This document shows, one piece after another, positions 12,335-34,366 of a stretch of DNA of 64,000 nt. The DNA comes from Emcibacteraceae bacterium (GTDB taxonomy: Bacteria > Pseudomonadota > Alphaproteobacteria > Sphingomonadales > Emcibacteraceae), in the NCBI GenBank assembly GCA_021774795.1, contig JAJFIR010000031.1, positions 434,001 to 498,000 of the forward strand, written 5' to 3'. The position numbers and the translations under genes are program-made. Position 1 is the stretch's first letter; each line of letters begins with the position of its first letter. The notes under the pieces are model-generated. The model was not told the origin of the DNA. It made no database searches and saw only the letters and a program-made list of their open reading frames with translations.

Positions 12335-14404
12335 CTAGAACCCGTAATTTAAAGATAACTTGAAGTTGCGACCGGGCATTGGAATTAAATCTTTCAAAAA
12401 TGACGAATGCTGTCTTCGGTCTGCGTTGGTAATATTTTGAGCCTGCAACCTAACATCAAGATCGCTTTCATCGCCCATCGGTCGCCATGTCAGCGACAAA
12501 TCAAATGATGTATAGCCGTCCGTCGGCAATATATTTTCTGCGGTTTTGGTTTTTTTACCTACAAATCGAACATCGCCTTCTATGTCAAAAAGCGAGGTTT
12601 TATAATCTATGCCTAAATTTGCACTGGCTGCCGGTATACGGGGTATTATGTTTCCATCGTTAAAACGTGCATGAACAAAATCACCAGTTGCTCTTACCAC
12701 CAGGCTATAGTCTTCTTGCTCAATAATGGCATAGCTTAGCTCGACTTCCGCTCCATATAGTTTTGCATCTTTGGCTCTAAACTCAAGAAGGTTAAGGCCG
12801 TCTACTAGCAACCCTGTTTCCTGCTCAAAAATAAAATCTTGATACCAAGTATGATAGATATTTACGCTGCCGCTAAAGGGGCCTTGGTTCCTTTTCACTG
12901 TAAGCTCTGCACTAGTGGCTTTTTCGTCGGTCAGATTCAAATTACCTCTCTCAAATGCACTTGTAGCAAGATGTGGACCATTGGAGAATAATTCTTCCGG
13001 TGTTGGGCTGCGCTCTGATCGACTTAAACTGATGCCGATCAGGTCGTTTTCACTGGGATGGATGGCAGCACCTGTGGAAAAACTGAAATTGTTGAATGAT
13101 TTTTTGATACCTAATGATTTGCTTTCTGTGGTTTGATGATCAAAGCGACCACCAATTTCAAACGTAATGGGCTCGATTTCAATTTCTTCCACAACAAATA
13201 CACCCCATTGGAACGTGTCATTTGGCGGAACAAAAGCTTCTTCGCCAATCGCGGAGAACTCGCGGTTTCTCATTTGCATTCCCATCGATCCATGGACATT
13301 GCCAATTTTTTGTTGGATTAATTCTAAGCGGCCTTCCCAACCTATATTATTAAAACTTGTCCCTGTGGCACCACCTTCTAACTCAACATGTTTATAATCG
13401 GCGTAACCAAAACGAAGGCGACTTTCTTCAAAAATGAGAAAATCTTCTTCAAGATTTCCTTTCAAATCGAAGCGCTTTTGGTCGAGATCAATTCGCACGG
13501 GCCCCTCTTCTTCTTCCTCCTCCTCCTCCTCGCCCTCATGTCCATGGCTTGGCACTCCATAATTACTATTATTTAAATTGAAAGATACGCCTAGAACTGC
13601 GTTATCTCCAATCCAGCTTAAACCAACGGTACCACCCTTGTTGTCAACATCTGAATTTTCGATGAAACCAAATTGTTCTTCTTCGTGCACTTCATCTTCT
13701 TCCGCTTCGAGTGCTCTTAAATTAGCACTTTCCGCAAATCCGGGAATATCATAATTTCCTGTCCGGCGATAATATCCATCGACGTGTAAAACAATGTTAT
13801 CTGTTGCCGCTACGTTAATGGCTGCCCCACCGGATCTGTCATTTGTAACAGTGTCAAATGCAACTCTAGCTCTGCCGGTTGCTCCCATATCAGGTACATA
13901 AGTTGGAATACGGTTATCAATAATATTAATAACGCCGCCAACGGCGTTGTTGCCATAGAGCAAAGTATTTGCGCCGCGCATAATTTCAATTCGTTCAGCC
14001 GTAAGCGGGTCGCCAGCAACGGCATGGTCAGGGCTGGTACTGGCCGCATCTATGCTACCTATACCGTTTATAAGCACGCGTATACGGTCGCCGCCAAGTC
14101 CTCTAATAATCGGACGGCTGGCACCGGGGCCGAAAAAAGACGATGAAATACCGGGTAGACCGTTAAGTGTTTCCCCAATTGTGGCTTCCATCTGCTTGTT
14201 TAAATCATCAGCTGTTAATATATTGCTGCCTTGAAGCACATCCAGGCGGCTCTTTTTATGGGGAGACGCCGTTACAAAGACCACGTCAACTTCATGACCA
14301 TGATCGTGAATTTCATTTTCTGCTTCCTGCGCAGAGGCACTAACAGCATTTAATGCTACCATTGAAATGATAACCAAGCTGGACCCTGACATATATTTTT
14401 TCAT
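12335..14404 (-). CDS. znuD: ZnuD-like TonB-dependent zinc receptor
   Basis: Outer membrane TonB-dependent receptor, probably for zinc uptake. The 689-residue precursor has a signal peptide (about 1-25), a metal-rich N-terminal stretch HDHGHEVDVVFV just before the plug, a plug domain (about 45-165, with RPIIRGLGGDRIRVLINGIG) and a 22-strand-type barrel ending in F. One extracellular loop has HGHEG followed by nine Glu, and another has a second acidic patch with His (EEDEVHEEE), as in the zinc-binding loops of ZnuD. The Zur box at 14444-14458, which overlaps the likely promoter, and the nearby zur gene agree with zinc control. The substrate is inferred, not shown. Confidence 0.88.
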   Translation of the reverse strand: MKKYMSGSSLVIISMVALNAVSASAQEAENEIHDHGHEVDVVFVTASPHKKSRLDVLQGSNILTADDLNKQMEATIGETLNGLPGISSSFFGPGASRPIIRGLGGDRIRVLINGIGSIDAASTSPDHAVAGDPLTAERIEIMRGANTLLYGNNAVGGVINIIDNRIPTYVPDMGATGRARVAFDTVTNDRSGGAAINVAATDNIVLHVDGYYRRTGNYDIPGFAESANLRALEAEEDEVHEEEQFGFIENSDVDNKGGTVGLSWIGDNAVLGVSFNLNNSNYGVPSHGHEGEEEEEEEEEGPVRIDLDQKRFDLKGNLEEDFLIFEESRLRFGYADYKHVELEGGATGTSFNNIGWEGRLELIQQKIGNVHGSMGMQMRNREFSAIGEEAFVPPNDTFQWGVFVVEEIEIEPITFEIGGRFDHQTTESKSLGIKKSFNNFSFSTGAAIHPSENDLIGISLSRSERSPTPEELFSNGPHLATSAFERGNLNLTDEKATSAELTVKRNQGPFSGSVNIYHTWYQDFIFEQETGLLVDGLNLLEFRAKDAKLYGAEVELSYAIIEQEDYSLVVRATGDFVHARFNDGNIIPRIPAASANLGIDYKTSLFDIEGDVRFVGKKTKTAENILPTDGYTSFDLSLTWRPMGDESDLDVRLQAQNITNADRRQHSSFLKDLIPMPGRNFKLSLNYGF

Positions 14405-14443
14405 TTCTTCGAATCCTTTGTAAATTTCAAAGGTAAACTAAAT

Positions 14444-14458
14444 TGTTATAATATAACA
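14444..14458. promoter_or_regulatory. Zur box (perfect 15-bp palindrome) over the znuD promoter
   Basis: TGTTATAATATAACA is a perfect inverted repeat around a single central base and matches the core of the enterobacterial Zur consensus (TGTTATAnTATAACA). On the minus strand its centre supplies a -10-like TATTAT, 17 bases downstream of TTACAC, so bound Zur would cover the znuD promoter. It lies 40 bases before the znuD start and 122 bases before the divergent DUF2946-like gene. Confidence 0.85.
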
Positions 14459-14524
14459 TTCAAGTAATTTGTGTAATTTTTCTATTTATCATTAAATTAG
14501 CAACCAATTCCAACCCGATGAACA

Positions 14525-14553
14525 TTGACAATAATTGAATTGTTACGTAACAC
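14525..14553 (+). promoter_or_regulatory. Possible promoter with a 12-bp palindromic operator for the DUF2946-like gene and zur
   Basis: TTGACA at 14525-14530 is followed after 17 bases by TAACAC, a weak -10. The perfect palindrome TGTTACGTAACA (14541-14552) overlaps the end of the spacer and the -10, the place expected for a repressor site. Its half sites (TGTTA/TAACA) are those of the Zur box, but the spacing is 2 bases in place of 5. It may be a variant Zur site or belong to another factor. Confidence 0.45.
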
Positions 14554-14579
14554 TAAAGGCATCAACATGGGAAAAGTGA

Positions 14580-14864
14580 ATGGTTTCTTTACGCCAACAT
14601 TGCAAATACTTGCTTTTTATTGTGCCGGTTATTTTGATTTGGTCACAATCTATAGTGGCGGGTCATGACCAATTGCATCACCATGTTTCTGATGACTGCG
14701 TTATATGTAAGATAGCAGGAAACGGAATTGATAATGCGAATTTGGTGGATGTATCATATGCCGACAATGTTCATTCGCAAGCCGTATTTACATTTATTAT
14801 AAATGTCGTATCTAAACCTAACTTATGGGCCACCCGCTTAACCCGAGCACCGCCAACTTCCTGA
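14580..14864 (+). CDS. Small exported His/Cys protein, DUF2946-like
   Basis: A 94-residue protein with a signal peptide (about 1-27, ending SIVA), then the metal-ligand-like stretch HDQLHHHVSDDCVICK (three clustered His and a CxxC), and the C-terminal RLTRAPPTS. The His-then-CxxC pattern and the RAPP ending are typical of DUF2946 proteins, often found beside metal receptors. It lies between the Zur box and zur, so a periplasmic zinc-handling role is a fair inference. An overlapping 33-codon frame from the ATG at 14567 has no such features. Start at 14580 is the only ATG that includes the signal peptide. Confidence 0.6.
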   Translation: MVSLRQHCKYLLFIVPVILIWSQSIVAGHDQLHHHVSDDCVICKIAGNGIDNANLVDVSYADNVHSQAVFTFIINVVSKPNLWATRLTRAPPTS

Positions 14865-14995
14865 TATCATTTTATTTTCAACATCAATTTAACGACCATC
14901 AGTAATAGATGTGTTGTTACGATTCTGATTAATATCCGAAATAACAGGCAAATTTAATGCCTCTTTTTTCGGACGAAGGATTTGAAGGAAACGTC

Positions 14996-15457
14996 ATGAT
15001 CAATAGATCAAATGTAGCAAGGGAACAGAGTAATATTTACTCAAAACAATTAATAACACCGAAAGTACACCGTTTAACAACCAATCAAAAAATGGTTTAT
15101 GAAACTTTACTGAACCTCGGACGCTCTGCCGGGGCGTATGAATTACTGGATTTGCTTAAGAAAAAGGGCGTTAATGCTGCGGCAACGGTATATAGAGCAC
15201 TCAACGAACTTAGGACCAAGGGTTTGGTGCAACGCATTGTCAGCACCCGAACATTCATTGCTCATGAATACCCAAAAACTAAAAAAGACGAATCAGTGCT
15301 ATTGATTTGCAAGCATTGTGGGGACGTTTCCTCTATAAAAGATAACCAGATTATTGAAGTTTTTGATAAAAAAATTGAACATAGTGGCTACAGAGTGAGT
15401 AGTTATCATTTGGAACTTATAGTCTTTTGCGATTTGTGTACGGAAAAAGGAATGTAA
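14996..15457 (+). CDS. zur: Zinc uptake regulator Zur (Fur family)
   Basis: Zn-dependent repressor of the Fur family. The protein has a winged-helix domain (about 25-90; VYETLLNLGRSAGAYELLDLL, AATVYRALNELRTKGLVQRI) and a dimerisation domain with the structural-zinc cysteine pairs CKHCGD and CDLC. I chose the ATG at 14996 (153 residues) because AAGGAA lies five bases before it; the in-frame ATG at 14957 has no good ribosome binding site and would add 13 residues. Its place next to the ZnuD-like receptor and the Zur palindrome supports Zur over Fur, Mur or PerR. Confidence 0.88.
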   Translation: MINRSNVAREQSNIYSKQLITPKVHRLTTNQKMVYETLLNLGRSAGAYELLDLLKKKGVNAAATVYRALNELRTKGLVQRIVSTRTFIAHEYPKTKKDESVLLICKHCGDVSSIKDNQIIEVFDKKIEHSGYRVSSYHLELIVFCDLCTEKGM

Positions 15458-31244: not shown

Positions 31245-32012
31245 TCATTCTTCATTTGGGGCCATTTGGGAGCCAATTAATACTGGTTTATGAACCATTT
31301 TTTTTGCTTTATCCTGCGGGTTAGCCGCATATATTTGTTTTTCGGCTTCAATGATAAGAACCCCGGCAAACTTACTCCACCACCTTTGGCCTGTGGTCTC
31401 CAACGTTGCAAGCGCTGTGAGCATTGTTCTGCTTTTAAAAGGGGGCAGAAATAATGCAGAAGTCCATCTTGTCGGGCTGAGCATATTCTTTGACAGCATT
31501 TCCTTAATTTGGGATGTAGAGAAAGGCTTTCCGTGCCCGAACGGCGTTGCTTCAGACCGACACCACGGCCCAAGACGGCTTGGGACGATGATAAGAACGC
31601 GACCCCCGGGTGCGAGGGAGCGCCATACTTCACGCAGCATATGTTTGCTGTGATCTGTATGCTCAAGACAATGAACTATTATTATTCTATCCATGCTTGC
31701 TTCTTTGATCGGAAGATCAGTTTCTCGCGCCAATGCAGTAAGATTACCATGATAGCGACCATATTGATCTTTTTGGTGATCCTTGTGGCGTGGCCAACGA
31801 ATTACGCCTTGCAAAGTGGGCATAATGGCCACGGTGTGGGCCGCTTCATCACGAAATGTTTCCAAATAGGGAGGAGCGTATCCAAACCCCAGAATGTCCA
31901 TTCCCTTAATGGAAGGCCACAGGGTTCTAATTTGCCTTCGGATAAGCCTTGTGGTTATCTTCCCAAGCGGAGACGCATAATATGACCTTAACTCTACGAC
32001 ATCTTGAAACAT
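31245..32012 (-). CDS. Class I SAM-dependent methyltransferase
   Basis: A 255-residue methyltransferase of an alphaproteobacterial family of unknown substrate. GFGYAPPYLE replaces the usual glycine-rich motif I, and IIIVHCLEHTDHSKHMLREVWRSLAPGGRVLIIVPSR covers motifs II and III in a Methyltransf_11 pattern. The family commonly lies near the hisC-tyrC-metX-metW cluster and is often divergent from a glyoxalase II gene, which is not present here. Its upstream region carries a terminator-like hairpin (32094-32126), so it may be controlled by attenuation if transcription begins further upstream. Confidence 0.82.
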   Translation of the reverse strand: MFQDVVELRSYYASPLGKITTRLIRRQIRTLWPSIKGMDILGFGYAPPYLETFRDEAAHTVAIMPTLQGVIRWPRHKDHQKDQYGRYHGNLTALARETDLPIKEASMDRIIIVHCLEHTDHSKHMLREVWRSLAPGGRVLIIVPSRLGPWCRSEATPFGHGKPFSTSQIKEMLSKNMLSPTRWTSALFLPPFKSRTMLTALATLETTGQRWWSKFAGVLIIEAEKQIYAANPQDKAKKMVHKPVLIGSQMAPNEE

Positions 32013-32317
32013 GGTGGAACTTCCAACCTTTTAACGTGGTTAAGAAGTATATCGAATAAAAAATTAAAACCAATATCTATGGTGTAAAAAACATTCGGCC
32101 CACTTTTGATTTAAAAGTGAGCCGAAAAGAGAGGGGGAAGTTATTAAAACTGTCACTTAAATTAACGAGTAAATTAAGAGACGATATAACATAACATTGA
32201 ATGTAAAACTTATCAACATATTTCTGAAATAAGAAAAATTCTTGTGAATTTTATGTAAATCATTCAAAATCATCTTCAGATTCAGAAGATTGATGGGTGT
32301 TTCCAAAAGGAATGAAT
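32013..32317. other. 305-base intergenic region with a hairpin and a possible minus-strand transcript
   Basis: No coding potential was seen. The region separates the minus-strand methyltransferase gene from the plus-strand M13 peptidase gene. Its main feature is the stem at 32094-32126 with a T-run on the minus strand, described under the small RNA entry. The remainder is AT-rich. Confidence 0.7.
32086..32182 (-). ncRNA. Candidate trans-acting small RNA with C-rich motif and Rho-independent terminator
   Basis: On the minus strand a -35-like TTGATA (32211-32216) and a -10-like TATGTT (32188-32193) are exactly 17 bases apart, giving a start near 32182. The transcript would end at the T-run at 32086-32091 after a strong stem: TTCGGC and CACTTTT on one side pair with AAAAGTG and GCCGAA on the other (32094-32126; one C-A mismatch, five-base loop). 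Between start and terminator is an unpaired pyrimidine stretch, CTTCCCCCTCTCTTTT, complementary to Shine-Dalgarno sequences. No reading frame of note. The alternative is an attenuator in the leader of the methyltransferase gene. Confidence 0.5.
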
Positions 32318-34366
32318 ATGAAAAAATATTTGAGTATAGTTGTTGCCGTTACGCTAATTTCCGGATGTGATAATAGTGGATCAGAGAATTCAGAGCTGGA
32401 AATGATAAAGTCTGATAAACCGTCGGGTGTAAATTTGGCAAACATGGACACCACGGTCCATCCTGGTGATGATTTTTTTGAATATGTTAGCGGTACGTGG
32501 CTTAAAAATACCGAAATTCCTGCCGACAAAAGCAGGTATGGTGCCTTCAATATATTACGCGATAACGCCGAAACAGATGTTCGTGCCATTATCGAGGAAG
32601 CATCAGCTTCCGGTGCAGTTTCAGGGAGCAGCGAACAAAAGGCTGGCGATCTGTTTAAATCATATATGGATATGGAAACACGTAACGCACTCGGCATAAA
32701 GCCACTGCTTTCGCATTTGGCAGATGTTGATGCTATTACCGACAGAGAAAGTCTTTCCCTTTATCTTGCTCAAGCAAACAAATATTCCACCAGCAACCCT
32801 CTCGCTTTATATATTAGTGTGGATGCTAAAATACCAACGCAATATTCGCTTCATATCTATCAGGCGGGCCTTGGACTGCCTGATAGAGAATATTATTTTA
32901 ATGACGACGAGAAATCGATAGATATCCGGCAAAAATATCTTACTCACATCAAAAAAATGCTCGATCTGGCAAATATTGAGAATGCCGCAAGTTCGGCACA
33001 ACTGATTATGGATCTGGAAACACAAATTGCCGAGGTTCATTGGAAGAAAGAAGAAAACCGCGATAGCAATAAACGATATAACAAGTATGAAATTACTCAA
33101 TTAAAAGAGCTTTTGTCCAATTTGGATTTAGATATCTATTTTGATGAAGTAGGCGCGCCAAATGAAAATGCGATTATCATCAATCAACCCAGCTTTTTGG
33201 AGGGCTTGAATTCACTACTGGGTGAAGTGCCGCTGTCTTCCTGGAAAATATATTTAAAATGGTCACTGGTAAATGATTTAGCCTCCCGTCTAAATGATGC
33301 CATGGACCAGCAAAATTTTGAATTTTATTCGAAAACATTAAGCGGTGTAGAAGAACAGAGACCTATGTGGCGTAGAGCAGTATCCACAGTCAGCGCAAAC
33401 CTTGGAGAGCTTGTTGGTGAGGTTTACGTTTCCAAACATTTTAAACCGGAAGCAAAGAAAAGCATGGTTGGACTGGTTCAGAACTTGATCAAATCATACG
33501 AAATGAGCATAAGGTCACTAGATTGGATGGGCGAAGAGACCAAGCAGAAAGCCCTTGAAAAACTATCAAAGTTTAGTCCGAAAATTGGCTATCCCGATGT
33601 TTGGAAAGACTATTCAAAATTGGAAATAAAAGCGGATGACCTCGTCGGGAATATATACCGATCGGCTTTGGTTGTACATAATAGAGAGCTTGCTAAATTA
33701 GGTGCCCCGATCGACAAAAATGAATGGTTCATGACACCTCAAACGGTCAACGCATATTATAACCCGACAATGAATGAGATCGTATTCCCGGCGGCTATAT
33801 TGCAACCACCCTTTTACAACATGCCAGCTGATGACGCCGTAAATTACGGCGGTATTGGTGGTGTCATCGGGCACGAGATCGGCCACGGGTTTGATGATCA
33901 GGGTAGTCGCTATAATGGAGACGGCAAGCTCGAAGACTGGTGGACAACCAGCGATCAGGAAAAATTTAAAGCAAAAACCGGCGCACTTGTATCGCAATAT
34001 GACACGTACGAACCTGTTGACGGAACTAATGTGAATGGTGAATTTACATTAGGGGAAAATATCGGTGATTTAAGCGGTTTGAGTATAGCTTATAAAGCTT
34101 ACAAACTTTCACTTGATGGTAAGGAAGCGCCGGTGATAGAAGGCTTTACGGGCGATCAGCGGTTTTTCATTGGCTGGGCACAAGCGTTCCAATCGAAAAT
34201 ACGTGATGAGGCATTGATACAGCAAATAAAGACTGACCCACATTCTCCTGATCGATATAGGGTGAACGGAGTCGTTTATAATATTGATGCATTTTATGAT
34301 GCGTTTGATGTTGAAGAGACGCATAAGCTATACATCAAGCCGGAGGACCGCGTTAGAATCTGGTAA
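32318..34366 (+). CDS. M13 family zinc metallopeptidase (neprilysin/PepO type), lipoprotein
   Basis: Oligopeptidase of the M13 family, anchored as a lipoprotein (lipobox LISGC at about residues 14-18). The 682-residue protein has the N-terminal M13 domain, then the catalytic domain with the zinc motif HEIGH in VIGHEIGHGFDDQGSRYN, the third ligand in GENIGDLSG, NAYYNPTMNEI (substrate binding) and a C-terminal RIW in place of the usual VW. Start: the ATG at 32318 has AAAAGGA six bases upstream and opens with MKKYLS; the in-frame GTG at 32297 and ATG at 32312 are less likely. Confidence 0.95.
   Translation: MKKYLSIVVAVTLISGCDNSGSENSELEMIKSDKPSGVNLANMDTTVHPGDDFFEYVSGTWLKNTEIPADKSRYGAFNILRDNAETDVRAIIEEASASGAVSGSSEQKAGDLFKSYMDMETRNALGIKPLLSHLADVDAITDRESLSLYLAQANKYSTSNPLALYISVDAKIPTQYSLHIYQAGLGLPDREYYFNDDEKSIDIRQKYLTHIKKMLDLANIENAASSAQLIMDLETQIAEVHWKKEENRDSNKRYNKYEITQLKELLSNLDLDIYFDEVGAPNENAIIINQPSFLEGLNSLLGEVPLSSWKIYLKWSLVNDLASRLNDAMDQQNFEFYSKTLSGVEEQRPMWRRAVSTVSANLGELVGEVYVSKHFKPEAKKSMVGLVQNLIKSYEMSIRSLDWMGEETKQKALEKLSKFSPKIGYPDVWKDYSKLEIKADDLVGNIYRSALVVHNRELAKLGAPIDKNEWFMTPQTVNAYYNPTMNEIVFPAAILQPPFYNMPADDAVNYGGIGGVIGHEIGHGFDDQGSRYNGDGKLEDWWTTSDQEKFKAKTGALVSQYDTYEPVDGTNVNGEFTLGENIGDLSGLSIAYKAYKLSLDGKEAPVIEGFTGDQRFFIGWAQAFQSKIRDEALIQQIKTDPHSPDRYRVNGVVYNIDAFYDAFDVEETHKLYIKPEDRVRIW

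Follow-up and report, generated by a model that had tools for sequence, protein, structure and literature searches.

Between the genes for an M13-family metallopeptidase and a SAM-dependent methyltransferase, this Emcibacteraceae bacterium carries what is very probably a small RNA gene, belonging to a new family confined to a single Kordiimonadales-type genus. The RNA probably acts in trans as a free-standing regulator of the anti-Shine-Dalgarno type, an estimate that covers the trans-acting sRNA and excludes its possible control by Zur. A sigma-70-type extended -10 promoter would start the RNA at about 32182 of the window (the whole stretch of DNA analysed, 64,000 nucleotides), and an intrinsic terminator would end it at about 32087. 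An unpaired linker, UUAAUAACUUCCCCCUCUCUU, is predicted to lie between a hairpin at the 5' end and that of the terminator; it probably base-pairs in trans with mRNAs, at ribosome binding sites rich in G, and would block their translation. A repressor on a 15-bp dyad lying over the -10 element probably controls the promoter. The best single candidate for this repressor, with roughly even odds, is Zur, encoded 17 kb away, and with Zur as repressor zinc scarcity would turn the RNA on.

Parts of the element and its neighbours

The features of the locus, and those elsewhere in the window that bear on its control, are as follows:

32211..32216, minus strand: -35 element TTGATA; the TTG is kept in the alignment of relatives
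32193-32188, minus strand: extended -10 TATGTT, following TTGATA after a 17-nt spacer that ends in TGT
32182..32196, minus strand: 15-bp dyad TGTTATGTTATATCG over the extended -10 and the start site; candidate Zur operator, from conservation and dyad class
32087..32182, minus strand: putative small RNA of about 96 nt; start placed by the promoter and the conserved block GTCTCT
32150..32182, minus strand: 5' hairpin, GUC.CUUAA/UUAAG.GAC in the window and GUCUCU/AGAGAC in eight relatives
32127..32147, minus strand: near-invariant unpaired linker, containing the C-rich anti-Shine-Dalgarno-like stretch
32140-32129, minus strand: C-rich stretch CTTCCCCCTCTC inside the linker
32087..32126, minus strand: intrinsic terminator, a 14-pair stem (32126-32094) and then the U-run TGTTTTTT, from sequence and fold
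32046..32073, minus strand: promoter-like sequence of the methyltransferase gene, TTGGTT-N16-TATACT, 3' of the terminator
31245..32012, minus strand: SAM-dependent methyltransferase (Methyltransf_11, by domain match), downstream neighbour
32297..34366, plus strand: M13-family (zinc-type) metallopeptidase, divergent neighbour; likely true start near 32318
14957..15457, plus strand: Zur-like Fur-family regulator (Pfam FUR, 3e-12), proposed controller of the RNA
14444..14458, minus strand: perfect palindromic Zur-type box TGTTATATTATAACA, upstream of the ZnuD-like TonB receptor
12335-14404, minus strand: ZnuD-like TonB receptor; best NCBIfam match ZnuD, below cut-off

Several of these parts had been reported in a first-pass annotation. 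The TTGATA/TATGTT pair with 17-base spacing is present on the minus strand at 32216-32211 and 32193-32188, and the terminator stem with its T-run lies on the same strand as described, with 14 pairs and not 13. For the C-rich stretch, which had been called unpaired, the mean unpaired probability is 0.88 in the window; eight relatives give 0.96-1.00. Across the nine ensembles the stretch is thus largely or fully free of pairing (mean 0.88-1.00). The linker around it is unpaired in the predicted folds of the relatives and largely unpaired in that of the window.

The fold of the 96-nt RNA has z = -4.9 against dinucleotide shuffles, and the 100-nt stretch from the probable start site has z = -7.4. 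All nine sequences share a similar predicted fold, with the 5' hairpin of the window genome formed by a different, shifted pairing. The nine aligned RNAs share no reading frame that begins with a start codon, and a small ORF inside the RNA is not conserved.

Conservation and distribution

BLASTN with a 181-base query was run on the 12 other genomes of the genus, 8 of which gave strong matches (E 1e-11 to 1e-20). The promoter, C-rich linker and terminator are kept in 9 of the 13 genus genomes, the window's genome included, and in all nine the element lies between the M13 peptidase and methyltransferase genes, with metW beyond. Conservation of the stem and the C-rich motif, on which the first-pass annotation had staked its proposal, is found in these 9 of 13, and the covariance search it had suggested recovered nine syntenic members (E 1e-12 to 1e-20). 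Its central claim, a free-standing small RNA with its own promoter and terminator, is supported by this comparison.

The element appears to be confined to the genus. The covariance model, made from the nine sequences and run on 32 family genomes and 198 order genomes, returned the same nine members and no other convincing match; matches in sister genera had E values of 0.09-0.8, and those inspected were mostly terminators behind other genes. A GTDB scan with the exact motif found other matches only in unrelated phyla, so that neither search gave a convincing homologue outside the genus. Sister genera have the methyltransferase gene with a different upstream neighbour and without the element. 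No Rfam family matched the RNA at or above its gathering score, and a literature search found no sRNA study in Kordiimonadales-type bacteria – the Kordiimonas paper that names "small RNA" concerns a coral microbiome. The family would thus be a conserved sRNA outside Rfam in these marine bacteria.

Conservation within the locus is strongly blockwise. Mean pairwise identity among the nine genomes is 98% in the -10/start-site block (TGTTATRTTATATCG-GTCTC) and 97% in the linker, 73% in the 5' hairpin and 68% in the terminator, and it drops to 40% ahead of the promoter, 43% over the -35 and spacer and 42% beyond the terminator. The 15-mer holding the -10 varies at one position only; its non-consensus hexamer, TATGTT, is conserved, with TATATT in one genome. 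The distance from the -35 TTG to the -10 is 17 nt in eight of the nine genomes and 16 in one, and the spacer sequence varies. The strongest constraint therefore falls on the promoter-control block and the linker, as expected of an sRNA that is regulated and acts by base pairing.

The stems are less alike in sequence yet keep their pairing: five terminator pairs have changed on both sides among the nine genomes, a number reached by 2 of 500 shuffles. When the partners are slid by 1–3 columns, pairing falls from 92% to 33-57% of cells.

It is extremely improbable that there is no RNA gene here and that promoter and terminator are chance matches in AT-rich intergenic DNA. Sigma-70 consensus matches are indeed no commoner in this region than in shuffles (2 found, 5.1 expected by chance), and for this reason the case rests on comparison with relatives. 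Conservation at the same locus in eight other genomes raises the promoter above chance, and the blockwise conservation, covariation and synteny in nine genomes are taken to refute a chance origin.

Two further matches within the genus were noted. An exact copy of GAGAGGGGGAAGTT in G007, 46 bases from the end of a sequence, was considered as a second copy of the RNA and rejected, as no promoter/terminator arrangement was seen. In G012 a weak covariance-model match (C1:737129-737210, minus strand; L058) has TTTAATAACTTCTC directly 5' of a terminator hairpin with a T-run, and is possibly a second, related sRNA.

Relation to the methyltransferase gene

The main alternative named in the first-pass annotation was an attenuator or leader of the methyltransferase gene, in which the terminator would control read-through from the upstream promoter. 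The terminator is on the same strand as this gene and about 80 nt upstream of it, and synteny with the gene is kept in nine genomes. The attenuator is nevertheless very unlikely, because the methyltransferase gene has a promoter-like sequence of its own and because one genome has the gene without the RNA. The promoter-like TTGGTT-N16-TATACT (32073-32046) lies between the terminator and the methyltransferase start, and TTGGC...GATATAMT is conserved before the gene in most relatives. In G007 the two genes are likewise neighbours (methyltransferase 78% and M13 peptidase 70% identical to those of the window), with the promoter-like sequence kept and a shorter spacer that lacks the RNA. No conserved antiterminator alternative was found, the linker being unpaired in the relatives, and elsewhere in the family the methyltransferase gene stands in other contexts without the element. 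Given the second promoter-like sequence and the RNA-less gene pair of G007, the RNA is best regarded as a separable unit.

The promoter dyad and possible control by zinc

The -10 block of the RNA forms a 15-bp dyad; neither this Zur-box-like dyad nor the conserved 5' hairpin was part of the first-pass annotation. Six genomes (G000, G002, G006, G007, G009 and G010) have a palindromic form of the dyad, TGTTATANTATAACA, upstream of genes for ZnuD-like zinc receptors. Across the genus, the pattern TGTTATRNTATAWCR, which covers both forms, has 62 matches against 6 for a reversed control, with palindromes counted twice. Other genes behind such boxes encode TonB (three genomes), other TonB-system proteins, a weak match to ZIP and His-rich small proteins, and boxes also precede genes for a 2Fe-2S (Fer2) subunit, a flavin amine oxidase and a DUF2336 protein. 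The dyad is thus a putative operator, probably of a metalloregulator.

A screen for Zur sites in Caulobacter used GTTA-N5-TAAC, and the Zur operator of that organism overlaps the -10 of znuK, znuL and znuGHI (PMC4176598). The RNA's box, GTTA-N5-TATC, is one base off the proteobacterial Zur consensus GTTA-N5-TAAC and is invariant in 9 of 9 genomes; position 13 of the dyad is T in all RNA boxes (TATATC) and A in the ZnuD boxes (TATAAC). G012 has a second box adjoining that of the RNA. The regulator encoded at 14957-15457 has Zur as its best NCBIfam match, below the equivalog cut-off, and among its PDB matches are a Fur-family regulator and 4mtd, the Zinc uptake regulation protein.

These matches suggest that zinc-loaded Zur might repress the RNA, which would then be produced under zinc starvation and be the first Zur-controlled sRNA; we give this reading slightly less than an even chance. 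As regulator of the RNA promoter, Zur is the best single candidate, with the prospects of its being correct about evenly balanced because the RNA's box departs from the consensus at a fixed position. The fixed T, together with the T-type boxes of non-zinc genes, leaves room for another regulator. A rival account keeps the same trans-acting sRNA and competes only with the Zur step: the promoter would answer to a different, T-type regulator, or the dyad would be a conserved extended -10/discriminator with no repressor. We would give this account an even chance of being right. It is in keeping with the T13 form being fixed in all nine RNAs and occurring also before genes with no obvious zinc link (flavin amine oxidase, DUF2336 and Fer2 subunit), and part of the constraint on the dyad may reflect promoter function, since the dyad overlaps the -10. 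Against it, the T-type box of tonB is reversed relative to its promoter in three genomes, which fits an operator more than a core promoter; orthologues of the Fer2 gene swap the T and A forms; and the RNA's -10 is conserved although its hexamer is non-consensus.

Metal-responsive sRNAs are known for several regulators. Table 1 of a 2022 review lists RyhB/Fur, s-SodF/Nur, RsaC/MntR and NikS/NikR, and gives "none reported" for Zur (PMC9294342). No counter-example of a Zur-controlled sRNA was found among literature titles and abstracts. The RNA would resemble the RyhB-type sRNAs in having a metalloregulator-type operator over its promoter; it differs in that its regulator and metal are putative and in matching no Rfam family. 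If the Zur step holds, the RNA would fill a gap noted in the literature, given that cognate sRNAs are known for the regulators of iron, manganese and nickel. It could then be a zinc counterpart of RyhB, sparing or reallocating the metal through repression of mRNAs whose ribosome binding sites are G-rich.

The search for boxes also brought out other arrangements. Within the window, at 12335-15457, a ZnuD-like receptor gene and a gene for a small His/Cys protein (HDQLHHHVSDDCVICK) are divergent, with a box between them, beside the Zur-like gene, a layout that recurs in relatives. A TGTTATANNNTATCA-type dyad is conserved before the gene for the Fer2 oxidoreductase subunit in most orthologues, and flavin amine oxidase and DUF2336 genes have T-type boxes in front of them in a number of genomes (L229, L236, L237, L238, L242, L264 and others). 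Together these genes would form a regulon that shares no evident theme. The boxed tonB gene has a 5' leader of about 150 nt with conserved sequence and stems, AATGCTTT...AAAGCAGACGCCTTAGTGGGACGTCCCAAAGGATCAATCG...GATCCG (L303 minus strand, L268, L291); this leader, seen in three genomes and without an Rfam match, is a candidate cis-regulatory RNA.

Possible targets of the linker

Target prediction with the C-rich motif, another step the first-pass annotation had put forward, had a divided outcome: no mRNA target conserved across genomes was found, and one Fer2 subgroup pairs with the linker far above background. By direct search, GAGGGGGA occurs shortly before an ATG at about 100 places in the genus, and the recurring translated genes behind these sites are glyS and a gene for a Fer2-domain subunit. 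The first was dismissed because the G-rich site belongs to the 3' end of the preceding reading frame and differs among genomes. In the Fer2 subgroup, the predicted pairing energy of the linker is -15.0 to -18.9 kcal/mol in all five genomes that have it; the background from 90 genes, computed over a slightly narrower span than the Fer2 test, has a mean of -7.2, a standard deviation of 2.7 and a minimum of -13.9 kcal/mol. Two of the five genomes were chosen by the motif, one is without the RNA, and the window genome is without the subgroup, so the Fer2 subgroup as a target is only a lead. The two genes neighbouring the RNA are not exceptional (-11.0 and -8.9), and the box-bearing genes tonB and amine oxidase, considered as targets, were rejected with pairing near background.

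A less likely role for the C-rich linker is to sequester a protein or titrate another RNA as a sponge, and not to target ribosome binding sites. Genus-wide, a 14-base complement of the linker, with one mismatch allowed, is not enriched over control, and this, with the lack of a target conserved across genomes, is what such a sponge would lead one to expect. Speaking against it, G-rich 8-mers stand directly before the ATG in tens of genes, an excess of about 2-fold over control that is largely expected for ribosome binding sites, and pairing of the Fer2 subgroup is far stronger than background. We consider the sponge improbable and regard pairing with ribosome binding sites as the probable function of the linker.

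Comparison with known small RNAs

Alphaproteobacterial anti-Shine-Dalgarno sRNAs such as cuckoo/CcsR, AbcR and alpha-r14 carry an unpaired CU-rich motif complementary to the Shine-Dalgarno sequence, mainly in hairpin loops. The RNA described here shares a CU-rich unpaired motif with them; it differs in carrying the motif in a linker and in having no Rfam match at threshold. In PmaR of Agrobacterium a C-rich single-stranded sequence is the proven target contact, as established by a 4-nt exchange (PMC6234868). Like PmaR, the RNA would be a lineage-restricted alphaproteobacterial sRNA with a putative single-stranded C-rich contact sequence. Compared by layout, PmaR is a long-stem "spoon" with its C-rich part in the loop, while the linker here lies between the 5' hairpin and the terminator. 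Bacillus ncr982 (RF02454) likewise has a CU-rich stretch directly 5' of a terminator hairpin, a resemblance of layout only, the match scoring 25 bits where the gathering score is 50 (E 0.2). Elsewhere in the window, positions 1409-1721 on the plus strand match the Rickettsia sRNA Rp_sR47 in Rfam, at 60.6 bits against a threshold of 60.
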